Source: a bacterium (GTDB taxonomy: Bacteria > Zhuqueibacterota > QNDG01 > JAGLOF01). From it: a DNA stretch of 64,000 bases. The position numbers were made by a program, and so were the translations under genes. Positions within the stretch are counted from its first letter, which is position 1; each line of letters begins with the position of its first letter. Where the stretch lies: positions 1 through 64,000 of the forward strand of contig JAGLOF010000011.1 of NCBI GenBank assembly GCA_023139105.1, written 5' to 3'. Positions 2,522-25,742 of this stretch are shown here, in pieces. The notes beneath the pieces were generated by a model. That model was given only the letters and a program-made list of their open reading frames with translations. It was not told where the DNA came from and ran no database searches.

Positions 2522-3880
2522 CTATTTCATCCCATACTTCTTCATCTTATATCGCAGATTCCGCTCTGTGATAGAGAGCAGCCGCGCAGCCGCGCTTTGA
2601 TTCCCCTTGGCCTCGGCCAAAGCATGAAGAATCATCTGGCGTTCCAGCGCTTCCACGCTGGCAGTCAGAGAACCATCCTCAACCGGTTCAACCCGTTCAG
2701 CCTGTAATCTACCGATACCGGGTGGCAAATCCACCGTGGAGACTGCCTCACCCCGGGCCATTACCACACCGCGCTGAATAATATTCTCCAGTTCCCGGAC
2801 ATTTCCAGGATAATCATGTTTCATCAAACTGTCCATGACCTCTCTGGAGACAGTTGAAACAGATTTAGCCTCTTCTTCACTGTACCTTTTAATAAAATGA
2901 TCGATGAGAAACGGTATATCCTCCCGTCGCTCTCTCAAGGGGGGAATGCTGATGCTGACCACATTAAGCCTATAAAACAGATCCTCACGAAATTGTCCCT
3001 CTTGAATCATCGTCTCCAGGTTCTGACTGGTAGCAGCGATTATCCGAACATCAATCTCTACAGTCTGAGACCCACCAACTCTTTCAAAAGAACGTTCCTG
3101 CAAGACCCGTAGAAGTTTTATCTGACTAAAAACAGGCATATCGCCAATCTCATCGATGAACAACGTACCCTCATCCGCCATCTCAAAACGTCCCTGCCGC
3201 TGCCTGTCTGCGCCGGTAAAGGCACCTTTCTCATGGCCGAAAAACTCGCTCTCCACCAGATTATCCGGCACAGCCGCCATGTTTACCGCCACAAACGGCC
3301 CGTTCTGCCTGGGACTGGCAACATGTATGGCCCTGGCAATGACCTCCTTGCCTGTGCCGCTCTCACCACGCAGCAATACAGAAGCCCGGCTATGGGCCGC
3401 TCTGCCGGCCAGGTTCAATACATTCTCCATGGCAGCACTATTACTTACAACGTGTTTAAATTCAAACCGGCTGCGAAGTGTCTCTTTCAAAATTTCATTC
3501 TCTGCCAGTACCTGTTTCTTTTCAAGCATTTTCCCAATGACAATATCAAGATGATCCAGGTCGATAGGTTTCTGTATATAATCTTCCGCACCCTCTTTCA
3601 TAGCCGTTACCGCATCATCTACATCGCCGAAAGCCGTCATCATCACTACCATGATACGGGGATTCAATTGCTTCACAACCTTTAGAAGCGCAGTGCCGGA
3701 CATCTCAGGCATGCGCATATCAGAAAGAATAATATCTACAATATTTTTTTCCACCACATCAATGGCTGCTTTTCCACTCTCTGCACTGAATACGGTGAAA
3801 TGCTTTTTCTTTAAATACCCGGACAACGTATCACGCTGTGCCGCTTCATCATCGACTATCAATATGCTAAACTGGCTCAT
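2522..3880 (-). CDS. NtrC-family sigma-54-dependent response regulator (REC-AAA+-Fis HTH)
   Basis: ILIVDDE receiver, GESGTGKE Walker A, ESEFFGHEKGAFTGA (GAFTGA motif), Fis-type HTH at the C-terminus; start at MSQF overlaps the kinase stop (ATGA). Confidence 0.95.
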   Translation of the reverse strand: MSQFSILIVDDEAAQRDTLSGYLKKKHFTVFSAESGKAAIDVVEKNIVDIILSDMRMPEMSGTALLKVVKQLNPRIMVVMMTAFGDVDDAVTAMKEGAEDYIQKPIDLDHLDIVIGKMLEKKQVLAENEILKETLRSRFEFKHVVSNSAAMENVLNLAGRAAHSRASVLLRGESGTGKEVIARAIHVASPRQNGPFVAVNMAAVPDNLVESEFFGHEKGAFTGADRQRQGRFEMADEGTLFIDEIGDMPVFSQIKLLRVLQERSFERVGGSQTVEIDVRIIAATSQNLETMIQEGQFREDLFYRLNVVSISIPPLRERREDIPFLIDHFIKRYSEEEAKSVSTVSREVMDSLMKHDYPGNVRELENIIQRGVVMARGEAVSTVDLPPGIGRLQAERVEPVEDGSLTASVEALERQMILHALAEAKGNQSAAARLLSITERNLRYKMKKYGMK

Positions 3881-5919
3881 TGTCCCTCTCCCGGAAGCCA
3901 AAGGAAAAATGCTGTTCCTTCCTCCGGCTTACTTTTAACATCTATACTACCGCCATGCCTCTGGATAATCTGATGGACTATTGAGAGACCCATACCAAGA
4001 CCATCAGCCTTGGTAGTAAAATATAGATCAAAAATATCACCCAGCACTGCTTTGGGAATCCCTTGCCCTGAATCTCTGACTTCTACTTTGTACATCGAAT
4101 CCTGCGGCTCACCCAGCAAAACGATACGGCCATGATCTGTCATGGCATCCAATGCATTTTGCAAAAGGTTGATCAGTGCCTGTTTCATCTGATCACGATC
4201 TATTAAAAGAATTTTATCCTCTCCGACTTCAACACTGAAATTGATTCCATCGCCCTCAATCCGGCTGCGCATCACATTGGCAACGTCCTGAAGCAATTGA
4301 TTCATGGAGACAGGGGCGAAATTTAATCTGGCTGGTCGTGCAAAGCGGAGAAACCGTTGAATAATTTCATTGCTGCGCCGGGTCTCCTGAACCATAGTCC
4401 TGGCCAAAGTCTCATACTCCTCCACATCGTCTGTTGGTCTGAACTCCTTGAGAAAACGTTGCGCAATCATGCCAATGGCATTTATTGGATTACGAATTTC
4501 ATGTGCCACTCCCGAGGCCAGCTTCCCCATGGCACTCATTTTTTCTTTCTGCCTCAAAGCCGCTTCCAGCTCCACCTGCACTGTCAGGTCAGTGGCAACC
4601 AGAATCACGCTATCAATACCTCCGCCCTCTTTTTCCAGTATGGATGTGCGCAAAGCGAGCATTTTCTTCTGTTTGCCAACCAGTACTTCCTCCATGGGCC
4701 GATCAAGGGCATGTTGTCCGGTTAGAGATTTATTAAGAATATCCAGTGCCGGTACGCCCAGAGACAGCAACTGCTTCCCGACAGCCCCGATCTGCAATAT
4801 ACCAAACAACCGGGCAGCAGCCTGATTAAATACTGTAATTACTCCCAATTCATCAATAGCAATCACAGCCTCTTTCATGCTCTGCAGAATTTCACCGGTA
4901 TGGGTTTTTACCTGATGATAGGAGGCTGTCATCATGCGAGCATTCAGTCTGGCCAGCCAGAATCCAATTCCTGCTATACCCATTAAAACAAAAAGAAATA
5001 CAATAAAAAATAATCGGAAACGAACATTACTGAGAATATGCTGGTAATGTGCAGTTTCGAGGCCAATGCGGAAAAGACCAAGATTTTCACCGTCAATTAA
5101 AAAACAACCCGCAATCTCAAAAACTTCTTTCCCCAGGTATCGGACAAAACGCATTCCATGAGACTGCTGCCGATTGATATCATTCAGGAAATGATCATTC
5201 TGAATACGGCTCATCTCTTCAACACCGCGGCTGGCAAGCAAAATACCCAGCGTATCCTGCAGCACCACATAAGCCATGCCCTGGCGTTGACCTATTTCCT
5301 GAATCAGTCTGCCCGGCCCTAATTCTCTTCGCAGCTCCAGCAGGCGGCCGGCATCGGCAGTGACAACCACACCGCCGCCCTTGCGCCTTCTGAGTACAAC
5401 AGCATGTCGTACACCCCGCTGATCCTGACCCTGACGGAGACCCACAATCAGCGTATCCTCTTCCCCCTTGCGGATAAAATCAACGATACCGGCACGGACC
5501 AGCATTGAATCAGGCGCATGATCGTTGGTCTGAATTTCAATACTGCTCATGGATCGGCGCCCACTCTTATCCAGAAGATGAATGCAGAACAGATCGGCAT
5601 TTTGAGCCAGCTCCTTCAACCTGTCCTGATCGAGACCATAAGTATAATCAATATCCTCAATCAGGCGGCTGCTGGCAAGAAGCCGCTGCTGCATTATATC
5701 TTCCAGTGCTTCAAAAGCCAAAACAGAACGCTCACCACTGGCACGCAAAATCTCCAGAAGAATTATACCTTCTTCATCCAGCATGGTAGTCAAATCTTCT
5801 TTTGAACGGGAAAATTCCAACAGGGCAAAAGTTGTAAAAAGAATGATCAACATGACGGCTGTCATTAACACCGTAATAAATACAGAACGCTTTTGATAGG
5901 GTTTTGCTGTATTCATCAT
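3877..5919 (-). CDS. Membrane sensor histidine kinase with PAS domain
   Basis: TM segments, PAS-like region, HEIRNPINAIG H-box, GLGMGLSIVHQI catalytic motif. Confidence 0.93.
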   Translation of the reverse strand: MMNTAKPYQKRSVFITVLMTAVMLIILFTTFALLEFSRSKEDLTTMLDEEGIILLEILRASGERSVLAFEALEDIMQQRLLASSRLIEDIDYTYGLDQDRLKELAQNADLFCIHLLDKSGRRSMSSIEIQTNDHAPDSMLVRAGIVDFIRKGEEDTLIVGLRQGQDQRGVRHAVVLRRRKGGGVVVTADAGRLLELRRELGPGRLIQEIGQRQGMAYVVLQDTLGILLASRGVEEMSRIQNDHFLNDINRQQSHGMRFVRYLGKEVFEIAGCFLIDGENLGLFRIGLETAHYQHILSNVRFRLFFIVFLFVLMGIAGIGFWLARLNARMMTASYHQVKTHTGEILQSMKEAVIAIDELGVITVFNQAAARLFGILQIGAVGKQLLSLGVPALDILNKSLTGQHALDRPMEEVLVGKQKKMLALRTSILEKEGGGIDSVILVATDLTVQVELEAALRQKEKMSAMGKLASGVAHEIRNPINAIGMIAQRFLKEFRPTDDVEEYETLARTMVQETRRSNEIIQRFLRFARPARLNFAPVSMNQLLQDVANVMRSRIEGDGINFSVEVGEDKILLIDRDQMKQALINLLQNALDAMTDHGRIVLLGEPQDSMYKVEVRDSGQGIPKAVLGDIFDLYFTTKADGLGMGLSIVHQIIQRHGGSIDVKSKPEEGTAFFLWLPGEGQ

Positions 5920-5953
5920 TCAGTCAGCCGCCATTGAATATGATTCGGAAATA

Positions 5954-7180
5954 TCAGAAAGTAAATTCACAGCCCAGGCGCGTCATACCGGACTTATAAT
6001 AATAATAGTCATCATTGGAATTATTATAAATATACATATAGTTAAGAGTAAGCACCATTGATTTTCCTATGGCCTTGAAGCTGATTGTTTTGCTCAATGT
6101 TGCTCCCAATATTCGAAGTGTATCTTCACGCTTCAATCCTTCCACAACGACGCCATCGAGATCATAGACAGGACGACTGTATTTTTTCCGCCCAAACATA
6201 GCATCAATTTTCAACCGACTCTGCCATGGAAGCAGCTGTGTGAGTTCCAACGAAAGATCGTTCATATCATAACTGTATGGATCGTCAAAAAGTTCATCAT
6301 TAGTTTCATAACCGGAATCCTGACCCGAAAGTACACGGCTGCCGCCATCCAGATTCCGCTGCATGGTATATTCAACAGCACATCCGGTTTTAGCTCCCAG
6401 TGACTGAGCCAGACGCAGTGCTCCGGTCAACTGAAACACAGAATTCTGCGGTGATACCACATGTACAACATTATAATAGGTCGAATCCGTACCGTCACCA
6501 ATACCTCTGCCCTTACCACGTCCCATCTGCCCAGTCCCGGTAAAACTTTCCACCCATTCATCATTGATCAATGATTCGGTAAAAGTTTTATAACCAGCCT
6601 GAAACCTGCCCATGATCGTAGTCCTGGTTTTTAGGAAAAAACTACCCCTTATAAAGGCCAGAGTTTCCAGAAAATTAAATTCTGTCAATTCTATATTACG
6701 ACGGTAGCGGACCTGAGCACCAAGCATCCAAATACGGCCTTTCTGAGTATCAACCTGAAAATTCATGTAAGCGTCCGCATGTTGATAGTCATAGTATTGA
6801 TAATCCGCCTTGTTAAACCGCTGCCCACCCTGCAGACCCCATGAGAGTGTACGCATGCCATCATCACTCCAGCGTTGACCTGAAAAGCCAATGTTATGAT
6901 AATAATATTGACGGGCGGAAAACTCTGTAAACAGAAAGGCCGATCCATTGTAAAAAAACTGAATCCCACCCTTCTCATTACTGAGTTCATGAAAAAGAGA
7001 CAGTCTTGGTTGATAAATGATATCTGACAGATTTTCATAATTTTTAAAGGCATTACCATCCAAAACAGTAGTATTGGAAAAACGTATTCCAGTCTGAGCA
7101 AAGCCTGCAGAAATCATTGATAAAAACAAGAAACCCGCAGCTTTCATAATATAAGTCTTTAGTCGAATTTTTCTATGCAT
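5954..7180 (-). CDS. Predicted outer-membrane beta-barrel protein
   Basis: Signal peptide; alternating aromatic strands; ends ...SGMTRLGCEFTF. Confidence 0.65.
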   Translation of the reverse strand: MHRKIRLKTYIMKAAGFLFLSMISAGFAQTGIRFSNTTVLDGNAFKNYENLSDIIYQPRLSLFHELSNEKGGIQFFYNGSAFLFTEFSARQYYYHNIGFSGQRWSDDGMRTLSWGLQGGQRFNKADYQYYDYQHADAYMNFQVDTQKGRIWMLGAQVRYRRNIELTEFNFLETLAFIRGSFFLKTRTTIMGRFQAGYKTFTESLINDEWVESFTGTGQMGRGKGRGIGDGTDSTYYNVVHVVSPQNSVFQLTGALRLAQSLGAKTGCAVEYTMQRNLDGGSRVLSGQDSGYETNDELFDDPYSYDMNDLSLELTQLLPWQSRLKIDAMFGRKKYSRPVYDLDGVVVEGLKREDTLRILGATLSKTISFKAIGKSMVLTLNYMYIYNNSNDDYYYYKSGMTRLGCEFTF

Positions 7181-7212
7181 AACGCTAACCCGTTGCTTTC
7201 TATATGTTCTTG

Positions 7213-7884
7213 CTATTTTTTCCCTCTACGACCAACACGACTCCGCATCCGTCTTAATCCACGGTCATCGGCTATTCCGTCACCATCTGCATCAAAGAAG
7301 CGATCCATCCTGCCTCGATTGACACTCTTCTGCCGTTCAGGAGTGTTAAAATGATCATTCATGCCGTCGCTGTTTGTATCGGCAAAATCAATATCGATCT
7401 TGCCCGTCTCTTCATCCACGTTACCATATCTATACCCCAGGATATCACGACCGTTGTAGGCCAGGCCTGTGATATCATTCTTTCCGTCTTTGTCCGCATC
7501 CAGCACGTGCTGCATAAGCGCACGGCCCCGCAGGCTGCCCTGCACCCGATCAAGTATGCCGTCACCGTCTGAATCTGTCCAGCGGCTCATGGCTTTTAAA
7601 AGCTCGCCCAGGTAGTCATTGACGCCGTCGCCATCAACATCTTTCCACAAGTCATTGATGCCATCACTATTCTCATCTCGGAACGGAAAAGGCAGCGTAT
7701 AGGATGCTCCGTCAATATCGTTCTTCCCATTGCCGTCTGCATCTACAAAGACATCATTGATGCCGTCACGGTTGGCATCTACCCAGCCCGATACATTCAG
7801 GCTGGTTTGCGCCGTGAGCGATGGTGAGATGATCATGGCTATGAACATGATCGCCGTTGTAAATGTTAATCGAAACAAGTGCAT
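7213..7884 (-). CDS. Secreted DxDxDGxxD (EF-hand/thrombospondin-3-like) repeat protein
   Basis: Repeats DANRDGINDVFVDADGNGKNDI, DENSDGINDLWKDVDGDGVND, DSDGDGILD, DADKDGKNDI, DTNSDGMND, DADGDGIADD. Confidence 0.85.
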   Translation of the reverse strand: MHLFRLTFTTAIMFIAMIISPSLTAQTSLNVSGWVDANRDGINDVFVDADGNGKNDIDGASYTLPFPFRDENSDGINDLWKDVDGDGVNDYLGELLKAMSRWTDSDGDGILDRVQGSLRGRALMQHVLDADKDGKNDITGLAYNGRDILGYRYGNVDEETGKIDIDFADTNSDGMNDHFNTPERQKSVNRGRMDRFFDADGDGIADDRGLRRMRSRVGRRGKK

Positions 7885-7950
7885 AAGACAAATATACCTT
7901 CATCACTTTACAATGTCAATGGCTTTCAATCTCTTCCGATTCGTTAATTT

Positions 7951-7978
7951 GGGGCACCGGCAAAACTCCGGAGCCCCA
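7951..7978. terminator. GC-rich intergenic hairpin
   Basis: GGGGCaCCGG-caaaact-CCGGaGCCCC, without a strong U-tract. Confidence 0.5.
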
Positions 7979-7988
7979 TAATATCCAT

Positions 7989-9464
7989 TTATTTTAAAAG
8001 CAACATACGCCGGGTCAGTGTGGACGTCCCCGTTCTCAACTTATAAAAATACAGTCCTGAAGGCACAATTTCTCCCTGGTCATTCCGTCCGTCCCAGGTC
8101 ACAGCATGAATGCCTGGTGCTGCCAAGGCATCTAGCAAAGTGCGGATTTCCTGCCCCAGTACATTGTAGACGGTCAATACGGCCTGTACTGACTCCTGTC
8201 CTCCCAGCTCAAAATCGATCCGGGTCTCTGGATTGAAGGGGTTGGGATAATTGGCCATGAGCCGGTGCTGATCAGGTATAATCGGACTACTTGCATCGAC
8301 ACCTGTGGATTCCAAAGCTTTGGAGCCTATCACCAAATCGGAGAAATGAATAACATCCGCATAGATCTTGTTCATGACAGTATCAACAACCACATTGCTG
8401 ATGCCATCGCCATTGTAATCGGTTTCATTCTCAAAAAAGAAGATCCAAAGGTCATCAGCTGTCAGGCCCAGGTCATTCAATAAATTTTCTTTATATGGCA
8501 GTACCAGTTGAATGGGTTCTGTAAAGTAGTATGGACTGATCAAAGTATCATTGACATAAACGTTGAAACTAATTCCATTAAGGATCTGATCATTGTAGGA
8601 GACAGTAGAATCATTTTCAACTATGGCAGCATCAGTCAGACGGATATCAATACTCAGACCCTCAACCAGACTACCGGCCGGAAAAACAATCTCACCGCCA
8701 TTGAGTACGTTAAGGGGAAAGTCAAGTCCATTTATAATAAAAATATCATTTTCATCCACTCTTATACACGTACCTTCCAATGTCCCATCCCGATCCCGGA
8801 ATTGAATTCGAACGGTATCTTGACTGGCTGTATCCGCCTCAGTGGAGACAAGAACCCGTGTTGTGGCTGTGTACCGGCCCACAGCGGCACGGATCATACC
8901 GACACCCTTATCTGTTGCCGTAAAAAATCCATCTTCTGTGAGTGAGCCGACCTCATTCCCCCTAAGCTCCCAGACCGCTGTCGTATCGTGACCCAATCCG
9001 GAACTGTCGATTAGGCTTGCATGAAACTGTAGAGTCTCACCGATTAAAATTAATGTGTCAGCAGGAGTTATCTCTAAATGACTGAACACCGACTTTGCGG
9101 CATCTCCCTTGGCAGTATCAACAACTGACACATGACTTTTACCTGTTAAATCTCCTGCTGCAGCATAGACATATCCGTTTCCCCGTTCTGTCGCAGAAAA
9201 CAGCCCTTCTTCACTGATTGTCCCAAAACCGGTGGCATCCACACTCCATGCGAAAGTGGTATCGGTTTCGGATCCGTTTACTTCAATGATCTTTGCAGAA
9301 TACTGTAGCTCACTACCTATCTGAAACCGGGCCGATGTGGGCTCAATAACAATTTTACGTTTTCTCTTGCCTTGCCCCTGTGCTAAAACTTGAGAAAAAG
9401 CCAACACCATCAATGCAACTAGAATGAAGCTCAAACCTCTGGCTGATCGTATCTTATTCCACAT
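7989..9464 (-). CDS. Secreted Ig-like-repeat protein with C-terminal sorting/FlgD-like domain
   Basis: Repeated Ig-like modules (W-x-V..G.IS..GLFSA, W-x-L..G.LTEDGFFTA); NYPNPFNPETRIDFEL...LTRRMLLLK C-terminus. Confidence 0.8.
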   Translation of the reverse strand: MWNKIRSARGLSFILVALMVLAFSQVLAQGQGKRKRKIVIEPTSARFQIGSELQYSAKIIEVNGSETDTTFAWSVDATGFGTISEEGLFSATERGNGYVYAAAGDLTGKSHVSVVDTAKGDAAKSVFSHLEITPADTLILIGETLQFHASLIDSSGLGHDTTAVWELRGNEVGSLTEDGFFTATDKGVGMIRAAVGRYTATTRVLVSTEADTASQDTVRIQFRDRDGTLEGTCIRVDENDIFIINGLDFPLNVLNGGEIVFPAGSLVEGLSIDIRLTDAAIVENDSTVSYNDQILNGISFNVYVNDTLISPYYFTEPIQLVLPYKENLLNDLGLTADDLWIFFFENETDYNGDGISNVVVDTVMNKIYADVIHFSDLVIGSKALESTGVDASSPIIPDQHRLMANYPNPFNPETRIDFELGGQESVQAVLTVYNVLGQEIRTLLDALAAPGIHAVTWDGRNDQGEIVPSGLYFYKLRTGTSTLTRRMLLLK

Positions 9465-9499
9465 AGCCTTGCTCCCTACTTAATGTAAAATAAAAATAC

Positions 9500-9522
9500 G
9501 CCGGGGTGAATTTCACCCCGGC
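9500..9522 (-). terminator. Intra-operon hairpin followed by T-rich tract
   Basis: GCCGGGGTGAA-a-TTCACCCCGGC then GTATTTTTATTTT on the minus strand. Confidence 0.7.
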
Positions 9523-9545
9523 TGAAAAACTAAGATCTTAAAACA

Positions 9546-10046
9546 TTACCGTCCGCGCCTGCCGCCCATGGCTTTACTCATGGAGCTGCCGGTTCTTTCC
9601 AGAGAGGTACCCCTGCCCGCACCACCACCTCGGCCAAATCCACCCTGACCAGCTGCAAATCCACTCCCGCGAGAACCGCGCATCATTTTACGACCGCTGC
9701 CATCCTGGGGACGTACATAGTCAGGATCTTTACCATTGGGAATGCCATCACCATCAAAATCCTGAACATTGTCATTGATGCCGTCACCATCAATATCCAC
9801 AAAACCCTGTCCCCGGCCCGATCCATTGCGGACATAGTCAGGATCCTGACCGTTGGGAATGCCGTCGCCGTCTGCATCGGGTGCGTTGTCATTGAATCCG
9901 TCACCATTGGCATCTACAAATGTGATACCACGTCTGCCTTCACCCGTGCCTGTTGAGTCACATGTTTGAGCTTGTACAGATTGGCCCAGTACCAGAACGG
10001 CCAATGTTGCCAGGGCCGTAAGCAGAAGTTTGTTGTTGCGTTTCAT
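9546..10046 (-). CDS. Secreted DxDxDGxxD repeat protein with Gly/Arg-rich C-terminus
   Basis: Signal peptide; DANGDGFNDNAPDADGDGIPNGQDPDYVRNGSGRGQGFVDIDGDGINDNVQDFDGDGIPNGKDPDYV; GRGGGAGRG tail; AAAGGAG RBS. Confidence 0.85.
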   Translation of the reverse strand: MKRNNKLLLTALATLAVLVLGQSVQAQTCDSTGTGEGRRGITFVDANGDGFNDNAPDADGDGIPNGQDPDYVRNGSGRGQGFVDIDGDGINDNVQDFDGDGIPNGKDPDYVRPQDGSGRKMMRGSRGSGFAAGQGGFGRGGGAGRGTSLERTGSSMSKAMGGRRGR

Positions 10047-19581: not shown

Positions 19582-20346
19582 CTATTTTAGACAATCCTTA
19601 CTACAATTCACCCTGCACTCGCCGCAGGCAATACAGCGGGATTTGTCCAGCACAGGTTTCTCCCCTTTTTTTGATATTTTCAACGCATCCATGCCACATT
19701 TACTTGCGCAGAGTCCACAATCGGTGCAATTCTCTCCAGGTTTTATTTTAAATAAGCCAATCCTGGAAACAATACTTAAGAGTGCGCCGACTGGGCAAAC
19801 ATATTTACAAAATGGACGAAAGACAAACAGGCTGCTAATGAGGATTACAATTAAAAACCCCAAAGCAAAAGGCGGCCCCATTAAATTGAATACTACTTTG
19901 AAAGGGCTGACCGCGGAGGTAAATACCTTCGCATGAAAAAGAATCGGGACTGCGATGAGGGCAAAAAGCACCAGGTAGGGGATTTTCCGCAGCCAGTTGT
20001 CCAGCTTTTCCGGAATTTTCAGGTGCAGTTCTTTCCGATAGAGCAGCTCCTGGATGATGCCCTTGGGACAGACCCAGCCGCAGAAGATCGGCCCCAGGAA
20101 AAAAGCAGGAACGACCACAACAGCCAGTTTAATCCAGAAGGGCAGCGTTTTTACAAAATCCAACGGGGCCATTAAAATATTCTGAATGGCGCCTATGGGT
20201 GACGGACAGCCCATCTGCAGGAATCCAAGTACAGCCAGCGATCCCAGCATGACAATCCAACGAACAGCCCGTTTCTTCATAAAAAAACCGGCAATTGCTA
20301 CAGCCATAAAAACAATATATGTCAAATTCTCAGCAGAAATATTCAT
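19582..20346 (-). CDS. NapH/MauN-like 4Fe-4S membrane protein
   Basis: GPIFCGWVCPKGIIQELLYRKELH, FRPFCKYVCPVGALLS, then CTDCGLCASKCGMDA and CIACGECRVNCSKDC. Confidence 0.9.
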   Translation of the reverse strand: MNISAENLTYIVFMAVAIAGFFMKKRAVRWIVMLGSLAVLGFLQMGCPSPIGAIQNILMAPLDFVKTLPFWIKLAVVVVPAFFLGPIFCGWVCPKGIIQELLYRKELHLKIPEKLDNWLRKIPYLVLFALIAVPILFHAKVFTSAVSPFKVVFNLMGPPFALGFLIVILISSLFVFRPFCKYVCPVGALLSIVSRIGLFKIKPGENCTDCGLCASKCGMDALKISKKGEKPVLDKSRCIACGECRVNCSKDCLK

Positions 20347-20377
20347 CCCTTTTCCCTTTTTACTTTTTACTTAAAAC

Positions 20378-21622
20378 TTACAATACTATCCGCGTCTCAA
20401 ATTTAATCTGCTGAGTACGGGCAAGTTCTTCACCCAGGTTCAGTACAGAATAGACCAGCCAAAAACGCCTGCCTTCAGTGATCTTTACCATGAGACCGAC
20501 ATCCAGCTCATCAGATATTGAATCAAGCGAATGACGATCAAGGCGACGGAAATAATCAACCTGTCCCTGCAGATGGCTGCTGAAGGCGGGATTCCATTTG
20601 TGTTTTAAGCCAAGGATCAATCCATGATATGCGTTATAACGCATACGCTCACCCCAGCGACTACGCTCAAATATCGGTGAGAAAACTGCTTTATCATGTC
20701 CTGATCCATACTGAAGACCCCAACGACTCTGCAGACCGCCCAATTTCGTTTTCCATAATTTCTGAATGAGAAACGATGCTCCAATTGCATTATCCATAAC
20801 TGTACTGATCTCATCGGGCCGCTGCATGGCTAATTCTCCAAAATAACTAACTCCCCTACCCAAAGAACCATTTATGTAGAGGCTGGCAAAGGTGGCAGAC
20901 CGGCTTAAACCACCGGCATTTGGAGCAAGTTGGCGCATGACCAAAAGTGACGCACGCTGGCGGCCGAGCCACCGCGCTGAGAGCGTACCGCCAAATGCGG
21001 AGAGATCACCCCAATCCGATGAGCAAAGGTTTTTCCAGCAGGCGAGATGTTCAATCACCTCCTTTTTCTGGCAGGCTCTGGCAGCATCTACAGCCAGGGC
21101 CCCGCCGAAAAAACTTCCCTTTAATTTGCCGAATTCCCAATTCAATTCGCCGCCGTCAAACCAGTGGTTCAGAACGAGTCCATTGCCGTAGGCCAGGTTC
21201 TGACGGCCCAAGCGAAACAGAAAATCACCCGGAGTCCATTCCAGAAAGGCCTGTTTCAAAGTAAAATAAACACCTTCCTCATCAAACTGACAGGAAAAAT
21301 CACTCCTGTTCTCCCAACGCCGTACAACACCCTCGCCCAGCCAGAAGAGATTATCACCTATTTCACCCTGCACAAGCATATCCGCCGCGCCAAAGGCATA
21401 GCGTTTGTTCTGAAAAGATTGAGACGTTTCATCATATTTATTAACGCCATAGAGAAAGGAGCGCAGCTCAACTCCCCAGGAGATACCAACGTCGCCAATA
21501 TCACGTAAATTCCCCGGTAAAAGTGAGGGGCAATCCTGTGCAGAGACATCCACGCGCCAGAGGGTCAGAGCTGTAAAAAAGCCGAGGAGTAACCGGCCTG
21601 ATCTACCAGAATTCATCATCAT
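20378..21622 (-). CDS. Predicted outer-membrane beta-barrel (porin-like)
   Basis: Signal peptide; FLEWTPGDFLFRLGRQNLAYGNGLVLNHWFDGGELNWEFGKLKGSFFGG resembles alginate-export-type barrels; alternating-strand sequence to the C-terminus. Confidence 0.7.
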   Translation of the reverse strand: MMMNSGRSGRLLLGFFTALTLWRVDVSAQDCPSLLPGNLRDIGDVGISWGVELRSFLYGVNKYDETSQSFQNKRYAFGAADMLVQGEIGDNLFWLGEGVVRRWENRSDFSCQFDEEGVYFTLKQAFLEWTPGDFLFRLGRQNLAYGNGLVLNHWFDGGELNWEFGKLKGSFFGGALAVDAARACQKKEVIEHLACWKNLCSSDWGDLSAFGGTLSARWLGRQRASLLVMRQLAPNAGGLSRSATFASLYINGSLGRGVSYFGELAMQRPDEISTVMDNAIGASFLIQKLWKTKLGGLQSRWGLQYGSGHDKAVFSPIFERSRWGERMRYNAYHGLILGLKHKWNPAFSSHLQGQVDYFRRLDRHSLDSISDELDVGLMVKITEGRRFWLVYSVLNLGEELARTQQIKFETRIVL

Positions 21623-22428
21623 GTGACTCCATCCTGAATGGCTTCAAAACGGCAAGCGGAAACACAGGCCTCACAACCGTTACACTCAATTTTATCGATA
21701 GCTGCAGTCTGCTTGACCATTACCAGGGCATCGTATGTACAGGCATCGACACAGGTGCCGCAAAAAATACATGTGTCCAGATTAAATGATGGCGTCGACT
21801 TTTCTCCTTCCACCGCTTCATGCGTGCAGGCCTCTTTGCAATTTCCGCAGGCCGTACATTTCTCTTCATCAATATGCACCTTGGCGGATTCAATTGCATT
21901 TCTCGAGCAGACCGCGAGACAATCACCGCATCGCTGGCAGAGCGATGTGTTAATCTGTGCCTTTCCCCCACCGAGAGTGATCGCACCGTAAGGACAAGCC
22001 GGGACACAGTCACCGCACTTGTTGCATCGACTGTTGACGGAATAGTGATCGGGGTTATAGGCAATGGCATCTTCTTCACAGGCGGGTATGCAATCACCGC
22101 AGCCCACACAACTATGCTGTAAAATAGTGAATGGACTGGGAACCCCGGACACCGCATCCACAGGACAGGCAGTTCTGCAATCGCCGCAACCTGTACATTT
22201 TGAGGCGTCCACTTCAAAATGAGACTTCTCCGGCAGCGCAATTGCTTCACGGGGACACAATTCCACGCATTCTCCGCACCCTGTGCAGGCAATTCCATCA
22301 ATACGCATGTATGGTGCAAGTAAAGAATTGTTCAAACTGCAACTGGTGAAAGGAATCAAGGTTGTACTTGCTACAAGCCCTACTCCTTTGAGCGATCTAG
22401 ATAAAAATTCTCTTCTGGCTAAATTCAT
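21619..22428 (-). CDS. Polyferredoxin with eight CxxCxxCxxxC motifs and Tat-type signal
   Basis: ARREFLSRSLKGVG signal; CTGCGECVELC, CTGCGDCRTAC, CVGCGDCIPAC, CNKCGDCVPAC, CQRCGDCLAVC, CTACGNCKEAC, CIFCGTCVDAC, CNGCEACVSAC. Confidence 0.93.
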   Translation of the reverse strand: MNLARREFLSRSLKGVGLVASTTLIPFTSCSLNNSLLAPYMRIDGIACTGCGECVELCPREAIALPEKSHFEVDASKCTGCGDCRTACPVDAVSGVPSPFTILQHSCVGCGDCIPACEEDAIAYNPDHYSVNSRCNKCGDCVPACPYGAITLGGGKAQINTSLCQRCGDCLAVCSRNAIESAKVHIDEEKCTACGNCKEACTHEAVEGEKSTPSFNLDTCIFCGTCVDACTYDALVMVKQTAAIDKIECNGCEACVSACRFEAIQDGVT

Positions 22429-22431
22429 CTG

Positions 22432-22842
22432 TTACTCTCTACTCTTCTTAATCTCTTCATTCACGGCCACCATTGTATCCAATACGGCTACTTTCCATTC
22501 GGCAGCAGAAATTCCTTTCTTGGAACATTCCCGAATAACTTCTAGTTTTGCATCACCGATTTTTGTTGATTTCAATATTAAAACAATTGAGTAGGTTCCA
22601 CGCTTCTCTTTGCTCCAACTACTCTGTTTAATAAGTTCAAAATTTTTCAGATTAAAGCGGGTGTCGTCTAGCTCAATAACACAACGTCTGTGCTCATAAA
22701 TCACTTGCACCTTGACTTCAATAATCTCTCCAACTGTAGTTTGTTTAACCTTTGACTCAAACTTATAGTGACATGCCATCAGTGGATTAGAAAAAACAAA
22801 TACGAGCATCAGCACAATACCCGGAATTAAAAACTTCTTCAT
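22432..22842 (-). CDS. Small secreted protein of unknown function, first gene of the Fe-S cluster operon
   Basis: Signal peptide MKKFLIPGIVLMLVFVFSNPLMA, 4 nt from the next gene. Confidence 0.65.
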   Translation of the reverse strand: MKKFLIPGIVLMLVFVFSNPLMACHYKFESKVKQTTVGEIIEVKVQVIYEHRRCVIELDDTRFNLKNFELIKQSSWSKEKRGTYSIVLILKSTKIGDAKLEVIRECSKKGISAAEWKVAVLDTMVAVNEEIKKSRE

Positions 22843-23245: not shown

Positions 23246-24220
23246 ATGAAACATAACCTCAGGCTCAACCTGCTGAAAGCCATAGCCGACCCCTCTCGCC
23301 TCCGGCTTTTGGATGCACTTCTTAAAGGACCACAATGCCTGGAAGAGCTTACCCAACGTCTGGCACTGGCTCCTTCCACTGTCTCCTTCCACCTGAAAAA
23401 ATTGGAACACGCCAAACTGGTTAACAAGCTTCGAGATCAATATTATACTGTCTATACTCTAAATGTAGACAAGCTCAACATACGGCTCCGTGACTTGGTG
23501 GAAACACCTGAAGAAGAACATAATGTACAGGACCAACGCCTGGAACAACGGCGCGTTCAGGTATTGAAAACTTTTTTTGAGGGGAATCTACTAAAACAGT
23601 TGCCAGTACAAAAAAAGAAACAACGCATTGTACTGGATATATTTGCAGCCGATTTTAAAACCAAGAAAGATTATTCCGAAAACGAAGTCAACCGGATCAT
23701 TCAGGAACGTTTTAACGATTATGTCCTCATCCGTCGATTATTAGTGGACCAGGGCGACATGGATCACAATCAGGGTTTTTACCGCCGCTCAGGGCAAAAG
23801 GCACAACCGGATATATCCTTACCTAAAACAAACATTGAGACCGAGATAAAAAACGACGAAAAGAAAAAACATAAAACTGCATGGCAGCCATATGAAATAC
23901 GGAAGAAAGAAGCAGGCATCTGGAAGATCACATGTTTGGCAAATGGAAAGTTTCTCCTTGGCAGCAACCTGGATATAAATGGTCCCTTTAGCCGGCACCG
24001 CGCCATGCAATCAATTGAAAACCACCCTATAAAAGCCATTCAGCATGACTGGAATCAATTTGGTAAAGAGGGTTTTAACTTTGAGGTACTTGAAACTATT
24101 TCTAAAAAAGCTGAAGCCTCCTTTAATCAGACCCACCAACTAAAAACCTTAAAACAAAAATGGATAGATAAAATGATGCCCTTAAAAGGCCAATGGTACA
24201 ATGAAGGCGAACCATTTTAA
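23246..24220 (+). CDS. ArsR-family HTH - DUF2087-like - GIY-YIG-like fusion regulator
   Basis: N-term KAIADPSRLRLLDALLKGPQCLEELTQRLALAPSTVSFHLKKLE; middle RIVLDIFAADFKTKKDYSENEVNRII...LVDQGDMDHNQGFYRR; C-term GIWKITCLANGKFLLGSNLDINGPFSRHR...DWNQFGKEGFNFEVLE. Confidence 0.85.
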   Translation: MKHNLRLNLLKAIADPSRLRLLDALLKGPQCLEELTQRLALAPSTVSFHLKKLEHAKLVNKLRDQYYTVYTLNVDKLNIRLRDLVETPEEEHNVQDQRLEQRRVQVLKTFFEGNLLKQLPVQKKKQRIVLDIFAADFKTKKDYSENEVNRIIQERFNDYVLIRRLLVDQGDMDHNQGFYRRSGQKAQPDISLPKTNIETEIKNDEKKKHKTAWQPYEIRKKEAGIWKITCLANGKFLLGSNLDINGPFSRHRAMQSIENHPIKAIQHDWNQFGKEGFNFEVLETISKKAEASFNQTHQLKTLKQKWIDKMMPLKGQWYNEGEPF

Positions 24221-24428
24221 AGCAACTTTACTGCCACGGGTATACACCAAACTCTTCTTATCAATACTCAAACAGAACAACTATTTTCCTTGTCTCTTTA
24301 GTAATCATCCAGTATCCACACCAATTAAAAAAATTTTATCTGATTTTCAGAAAAATGTCAGGGTAATTACTTTTACACACGTATCCTTTATCGAAATATC
24401 CAATAAATGCAAATACGGGAGAACTGTT

Positions 24429-25742
24429 TTGAAATTCAAATTATACTTCTTATTTATCATTGTGGCTTTAATAGCAGCTTGCGATCCGTCTTCGGGTATC
24501 AATGTAAAACCACAACCTGTTTCAGTCTCATTAGAAATCTTTTCTGGCAATAACCAATCCGGCAATGCCGGAGAGCTACTGCCAGCTCCTGTTGTCATCA
24601 GTGTCATTGATGCCAACCATGAAACAATAGCAAATTGTCAAATCACACTTCGCATTATAGAAGGGACCGGTGTTCTGAGCGACACACTCATTTCAACTGA
24701 TTCCCAGGGAAACATATCTGTAGAATGGCAGATTGGGTCAAATTACAATAGTATTGAAGCATTATCTCTATCAGAAGATTATCCGGCTCAGCCATCGTAT
24801 ATTTATGCTTCCAGTCAGAATCCCACAGGCATCAGCCAGATTAGAACCTTGAACAGCTTGGCACTAGTGGATGGATTATACACCTTATCATTGTATGGTG
24901 ATTTCACTGAACACTGGAATCAACGAAACAATTTGATTGTCAGCACCTGGGGAACGGCCGGTACTCAAGGCCACCTTTCACCCCACAATTGTAGTCTTTT
25001 CACAGCCTTTGGTACAACAGAGTCATCCATTTACGGAAGAAACACTGACAGCCCTGAATCACATATCTTGGTAAGTCGATACACTCCGCCCAGAGGTTAT
25101 ACTTCTATTTCTTTTTCACGCATCTTTGAAGTTGGTTATGATTATTTTGAAGATCTGGCAGCCCTGCCACTAAATCAAAGAAGAGGCCTTTTTAATATGG
25201 CTCAATCTATGATAGATGGTATGAATGAAAAAGGTGTGACTATTGCCGTGGCCGATATAACACGATCAGCCTATAATCCTGACAGTAGTAAAGAAACAAT
25301 ATTTTCTCTCTATCTCATGCGTAAAGTTTTGGATAATGCCGGAAATCTTCAGGAAGCCATTGACATAATAAAGGCATGCAATCCCTGGGATGGAAGCATG
25401 AACGTATTCCACAGCCAATTCCTGATTGCTGATCCTGACAGCTCAGTTCATATGAAATGTGTAAACGGATCTTTTGTTTTTGAGCACAATACAGTGGCAT
25501 ATCAAACTGCCGGCCACAGGCATACCGAAACATTTTCATTACTTAAGAACTACAATGGGAATATTCAATGGGATAGAGGGATGGATATTCTGGAACATGT
25601 ATCAGTAGATCCGACATCCTCCCAATATCCATATCCTACCATATACTCCAACATTTTTGACATGAAAGCAGCAAAAGTGTACACTGTGTTAAATAGAAAT
25701 TATTCACAGACTATTGAATTTGATCTTCATAATGAATTCTAA
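24429..25742 (+). CDS. Lipoprotein with Big-1-like module and C45/linear-amide (Ntn) hydrolase domain
   Basis: Lipobox LIAACDPSSG; CSLFTAFGTTESSIYGRNTD resembles the nucleophile region of C45/choloylglycine-hydrolase-type enzymes; TTG start inferred. Confidence 0.7.
   Translation: MKFKLYFLFIIVALIAACDPSSGINVKPQPVSVSLEIFSGNNQSGNAGELLPAPVVISVIDANHETIANCQITLRIIEGTGVLSDTLISTDSQGNISVEWQIGSNYNSIEALSLSEDYPAQPSYIYASSQNPTGISQIRTLNSLALVDGLYTLSLYGDFTEHWNQRNNLIVSTWGTAGTQGHLSPHNCSLFTAFGTTESSIYGRNTDSPESHILVSRYTPPRGYTSISFSRIFEVGYDYFEDLAALPLNQRRGLFNMAQSMIDGMNEKGVTIAVADITRSAYNPDSSKETIFSLYLMRKVLDNAGNLQEAIDIIKACNPWDGSMNVFHSQFLIADPDSSVHMKCVNGSFVFEHNTVAYQTAGHRHTETFSLLKNYNGNIQWDRGMDILEHVSVDPTSSQYPYPTIYSNIFDMKAAKVYTVLNRNYSQTIEFDLHNEF

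Follow-up and report, generated by a model that had tools for sequence, protein, structure and literature searches.

The analyzed window is a stretch of 64,000 nucleotides from a KSB1 bacterium, the source genome assembly of which comprises 5.29 Mb and is 87% complete. At positions 19582–22842, the minus strand carries four open reading frames (ORFs) that, in transcription order, encode a small secreted protein (SP; 136 aa; 22432..22842), a polyferredoxin predicted to be a Tat-exported lipoprotein (polyFd; eight [4Fe-4S] motifs; 269 aa; 21619..22428), a predicted outer-membrane β-barrel of a family without description (414 aa; 20378..21622), and a NapH-like inner-membrane protein (254 aa; 19582..20346). 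The ORFs are joined by a gap of 3 nt, a 4-nt overlap, and a gap of 31 nt—in agreement with the four same-strand genes with short gaps and a 4-nt overlap reported in a preliminary description of this DNA. The same description noted the lack of a multiheme protein in the cluster, and a scan of the window and of 26 related loci finds no ORF with at least two CxxCH motifs. A plasmid search gave no match, and a scan for promoters and terminators yielded counts not clearly above those of shuffled sequence.

Divergent from the SP gene lies an ORF (23246–24220) encoding an ArsR/SmtB-type regulator fused to DUF2087 and a GIY-YIG-like (group I intron endonuclease-type) region; beside it, a protein with a linear amide hydrolase/C45-type domain is encoded (24201–25742). 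A separate minus-strand cluster (2522–10046) encodes a response regulator, a sensor kinase, FVDANGDGxxD-repeat proteins, a protein with a secretion-tail-like C terminus, and a barrel-like protein without Pfam match (5954–7180). An FVDANKDG protein resembling these repeat proteins occurs 3 kb upstream of the set in Tangfeifania (L015, 3084–3431).

Features of the four proteins

The polyFd of the window features 33 cysteines: Cys30 and 32 further residues that fall into exactly eight CxxCxxCxxxC motifs, matched by eight Fer4 stretches in Pfam. The twin arginines at residues 5–6 (22411..22416, minus strand) are part of the Tat motif ARREFLS, and Cys30 (codon at 22339..22341, minus strand), the sole cysteine outside the cluster motifs, is a lipobox-type residue in the context PFTSC. 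The eight motifs, the RREFL signal, and the Cys in LIPFTSC named earlier are hence all present in the translation. Homologues carry RRxF (all 15 tabulated, as judged by motif) and a Cys at the signal end, which is usually preceded by a small residue (A/G/S, by inspection). The cysteines comprise only cluster ligands and the signal Cys in the polyFds of L015, L044, L045, and L050 as well. The conserved RRxF and lipobox-type Cys lead us to reject a cytoplasmic ferredoxin and agree with the earlier view of an exported protein with a Tat/lipoprotein signal. Because an Asp directly after the signal-end Cys is seen, among the polyFds read, only in L093 and L094 (CDA and CDG), sorting to the outer membrane is likely if the +2 rule of enterobacteria, whose validity in these phyla is uncertain, is applied.

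Cluster numbers, taken as cysteines divided by four, vary widely: two clusters in L045 and L050; eight in the window and L011; 10 in L014, L015, L044, L063, and others; 14 in L056; 16 in L049, L051, and L062; 20 in L059; and ~22 in L074. What the long polyFds have in common is a central block in which CVGCG...C precedes a variant cluster; the segments on either side differ in length.

The barrel matches no entry of Pfam or NCBIfam, and neither its sequence nor its profile has a credible counterpart in the PDB. Cys31 and Cys184 are conserved without exception at the corresponding positions of 16 homologues in the family alignment. An AlphaFold2 model based on four sequences features about 16 strands at a pLDDT of 44, and the Foldseek matches listed for this low-quality model comprise porins of the outer membrane and barrels related to them, mostly of 16 and 18 strands. 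As judged by its length and this low-confidence model, the barrel seems porin-sized with ~16–18 strands. A dicluster ferredoxin is estimated to be ~24 Å across. By the usual barrel formula, the backbone radius amounts to ~16.5–17 Å for 18 strands (~16–17 Å is taken for the present barrel) and to 23.5 Å for 26 strands, the strand number of MtrB, which sheathes MtrA (PMC7198977). Since a porin-sized barrel would be that much narrower than MtrB, a ferredoxin domain inside the barrel appears unlikely on this poor model; docking at the barrel mouth is not so disfavored.

The NapH-like protein features the NapH-type architecture: a Fer4_5 match (E 5e-16) with the motifs CGWVCP and FCKYVCP, and two Fer4 stretches that correspond to two C-terminal [4Fe-4S] motifs. 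The alignment agrees with this assignment. Its scores against TIGR02163 and NF007013 are 95.9 and 77.8 bits, below the curated cut-offs of 213 and 234. SP, which has conserved Cys and the motifs HRxC and RxCxK, is confidently predicted (pLDDT 86) to fold into an Ig-like β-sandwich; it has no Pfam match and no close solved structural relative.

Conservation and genomic surroundings

Profiles built exclusively from Bacteroidota sequences pick the same four ORFs among all ORFs of the window (SP, 5e-19; NapH, 4e-56; barrel, 7e-7; polyFd, 2e-59); homology therefore holds, as the profiles contain no KSB1 sequence. Among 83 genomes of the phylum searched, a second KSB1 genome (G047) is the sole relative (E 8.6e-6, 27% identity). 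Its four ORFs are ordered SP–NapH–barrel–polyFd, an order shared by many Bacteroidales and different from that of the window. The SP profile led to G048 and G041 as well as to Bacteroidales such as Draconibacterium and Tangfeifania, which share the set and its order with G047. The full set is found in KSB1 and Bacteroidota (L011/L013, L014, L015, L044, L049, L051, L059, L062, L089, L090, and L092–L094), and genome G933 carries it on one 5.28-Mb contig. With the barrel profile, 19 strong matches occur in 395 genomes of the order (marginal ones near 1e-4 left out) and 11 in 141 genomes of the family at 1e-10; 399 genomes spread over the phylum give the query genome and one marginal match only.

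NapH adjoins the barrel in 26 neighborhoods, the window included, with the exceptions of L046 and L047 (sister genomes) and L091. PolyFd is adjacent in 18 loci (the window, L011, L014, L015, L044, L045, L049, L050, L051, L056, L059, L062, L063, L089, L090, L092, L093, and L094), and distal copies occur in G451 (~22 clusters) and G162 (~16 clusters). The barrel of the window is very divergent—its branch in the tree measures 5.9 changes per site, and barrel identity to the window is only ~20%. The same membership despite a different gene order and this very low identity indicates selection for the set. Conservation in two phyla rules out chance neighbors, and the co-occurrence that had been proposed as a check is thus found in the second KSB1 genome and in many Bacteroidales.

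PolyFd is not detectable in eight of the ~21 Bacteroidota genomes with a barrel, which belong to few lineages and include a small MAG (G268). On the tree, polyFd-less barrels are clustered, with two label changes compared with a mean of 6.7 after shuffling, which points to few events rather than many independent ones. The Cys-Pro-Cys motif of NapH varies alongside: all Bacteroidota loci that bear polyFd and could be read have GCPCMI or a two-Cys variant; in loci without detectable polyFd, it is replaced by GGPG (L048, L052, L053, L054, and L057) or reads GGCPGP (L055). In the NapH of the window, just the first of the two cysteines is retained (GCPSPI, residues 46–51). G041 retains SP and NapH, followed by a barrel pseudogene with stops and missing parts (L010, 6281–6607), and has no polyFd profile match; G048 lacks both barrel and polyFd. 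In addition, most Bacteroidota NapH proteins (after an N-terminal signal-like helix) and barrels (in one loop) carry acidic DEFxxF-type repeats, typically 2–9 per protein compared with about 0.1–1 in shuffled sequence; none occur in NapH or barrel of the window and G047. These shared repeats may point to a common docking partner of NapH and barrel.

The genomic surroundings vary. Nqr lies upstream of the set in L093/L094; Rnf adjoins it in L057 and, by position, also in L054; and an NADH-dependent [FeFe]-hydrogenase adjoins it in L089, a layout shared by L014, L090, and L092. FecR-type regulation, a TonB receptor, and DUF2202 ferritin-like proteins are the neighbors in L016/L044. An ArsP_1-type permease occurs near the set in L014, L045, L050, L089, and others, and beside it lies a second, divergent SP-like gene in set orientation (these four loci and L090, L092, L093, and L094). 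The polyFd-less sets of L053 and L055 are preceded by a TetR-like regulator and followed by an MMPL-family exporter, with a LolA-like gene further downstream in L053. No neighbor gene common to all loci was found, so the four genes look self-contained. Among 14 carrier genomes, none encodes an MtrB/PioB homologue above the cut-off and three encode a cytochrome c554-type domain elsewhere; hence, the set is heme-free, but the organisms are not.

Relation to known electron-transfer systems

In bacteria with two membranes, the well-described routes by which electrons leave the inner membrane and reach the cell surface depend on multiheme cytochromes. Like MtrCAB and PioAB, the present set encodes an outer-membrane barrel together with a multi-center redox carrier, and electron delivery to the outer membrane is proposed for it. 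Unlike them, it features neither a multiheme protein nor similarity to MtrB/PioB (PF11854), and its barrel of ~400 aa is apparently porin-sized, compared with the 26 strands of MtrB. The methanogen polyferredoxins FwdF and MvhB/VhuB are cytoplasmic and use tandem [4Fe-4S] dicluster domains as a multi-cluster wire. PolyFd shares the tandem dicluster domains but is Tat-exported and predicted to be lipid-anchored.

In NapGH, a four-helix Fe-S membrane protein of the NapH type is paired with a periplasmic protein that is Tat-exported and holds several [4Fe-4S] clusters, and MLMS-1 features a NapH–NapG fusion termed polyferredoxin (PMC5449189). The function of NapGH is contested: quinol dehydrogenase or maturation factor (PMC6195509). 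The present set resembles NapGH in pairing a NapH-type membrane protein with a Tat-exported multi-[4Fe-4S] protein. It differs from NapG, which has four predicted clusters and no barrel partner, by 2–22 clusters, a lipobox-type Cys, the barrel, and SP, and the NapH-like protein of the window differs from curated NapH by scoring below the family cut-offs. The redox pumps Rnf and Nqr, which adjoin the set in some genomes, stand outside the conserved set and have no outer-membrane part. The closest precedent at the inner membrane is NapGH and that at the outer membrane the porin–cytochrome complexes; taken as a whole, the set is neither a full NapGH system nor a full porin–cytochrome complex. No open-access paper found by the search describes a set of this kind, in line with the earlier statement that no barrel plus periplasmic polyferredoxin conduit was known as described.

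Possible roles of the set

We lean toward reading the four genes as an envelope electron-export module that delivers reductant at or near the outer-membrane barrel. The NapH-like protein would take electrons from the quinol pool and pass them to the Tat-exported, lipid-anchored polyFd, whose 2 to ~22 [4Fe-4S] clusters may form the chain that leads to the outer membrane. At or near the porin-sized barrel, the electrons would then either act on a substrate that has entered through it or cross the membrane; SP may serve as a periplasmic Ig-like accessory. From the sequences, we infer this route from quinol via NapH and polyFd to the outer membrane with good support. Its first two steps—quinol to NapH-like protein to polyFd—would follow the precedent of NapGH, the role of which as quinol dehydrogenase or maturation factor is itself debated, and the electron flow from NapH to polyFd is strengthened by the co-variation of polyFd with the Cys-Pro-Cys motif of NapH. 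The conservation of the set in two phyla, the match of the window proteins to Bacteroidota-only profiles, the export and lipoprotein signals and cluster motifs of polyFd, the redox pumps and the hydrogenase next to the set in some genomes (Nqr, L093/L094; Rnf, L057; [FeFe]-hydrogenase, L089), the joint decay or absence of barrel and polyFd in G041 and G048, and the lack of MtrB/PioB above the cut-off in the 14 genomes are in favor of an electron-export module. Against it speak that the set encodes no acceptor or terminal reductase, that two polyFds feature two clusters only, that polyFd is not detectable in the eight Bacteroidota genomes, and that the NapH of the window retains a single Cys of its motif. 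If the module holds true, an exported lipoprotein with as many as 22 Fe-S clusters, encoded beside a barrel, would represent another chemistry for bringing electrons to the cell surface, or else a new supply of reductant at the outer membrane. The set also offers marker genes for anaerobes without multiheme conduits, and the system is open to test in Draconibacterium and Tangfeifania, genera with cultured members.

This module, to which we hold as the common core, has two narrower forms. In one of them, quite conceivable if less probable than the core itself, the barrel is a substrate channel that would admit a soluble oxidant or metal complex, which polyFd would reduce in the periplasm for respiration, detoxification, or iron assimilation. 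The porin-like size of the barrel fits such a channel, as do the metal- and uptake-related neighbors in some clades (FecR-type regulation, TonB receptor, and DUF2202 proteins; ArsP_1 permease with the second SP) and the ArsR/SmtB-type regulator adjoining the set in the window; the lack of a single neighbor common to all loci and of a periplasmic reductase within the set speaks against it. Reduction of a barrel-admitted substrate in the periplasm is at least as likely as electron passage through the barrel.

That passage defines the other form, a true cytochrome-free conduit: with polyFd docked in the barrel or threaded through it, electrons would be exchanged across the outer membrane with external acceptors or donors—an MtrAB-like arrangement with Fe-S clusters in place of hemes. 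In its favor, most loci have barrel and polyFd side by side, G041 and G048 lack both or show decay, 8–22 clusters could cover a long distance, and neither an MtrB-type conduit in the 14 genomes nor a multiheme gene in the clusters was found. The conduit nevertheless appears rather unlikely, given a barrel whose length and poor model fit ~16–18 strands, the dimensions of barrel and ferredoxin discussed above, and SP–NapH–barrel sets that occur without polyFd. It is doubtful that some KSB1 and Bacteroidales possess a heme-free trans-envelope wire for extracellular electron exchange, formed by a lipid-anchored polyFd of variable length and the barrel, with a NapH-type quinol oxidase as the electron source. 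Of the preliminary idea that the polyferredoxin could replace a multiheme cytochrome, electron delivery to the outer membrane is plausible; a carrier inside the barrel gains no support from structure, as ~16–18 strands in a poor model compare with 26 in MtrB, and the polyFd-less sub-group retains SP–NapH–barrel.

Reductive assembly or repair of the barrel or of another outer-membrane protein, with the two invariant barrel cysteines as target, would account for SP–NapH–barrel sets lacking polyFd and recalls the maturation role discussed for NapGH toward NapA (PMC6195509), but it leaves up to 22 polyFd clusters without a reason and is improbable. Highly improbable is a polyFd that acts mainly as an electron or iron-sulfur store of the envelope next to an unrelated porin in the operon: the roughly ten-fold variation in cluster number would suit a store, but NapH and the barrel keep together in 26 neighborhoods of two phyla with the few exceptions named.

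The polyferredoxin of G451 (L074, 4368–7921) is a Tat protein of 723 aa with 92 cysteines. It stands apart from the SP–NapH–barrel set of that genome, and its gene overlaps that of an Omp85-family outer-membrane protein.
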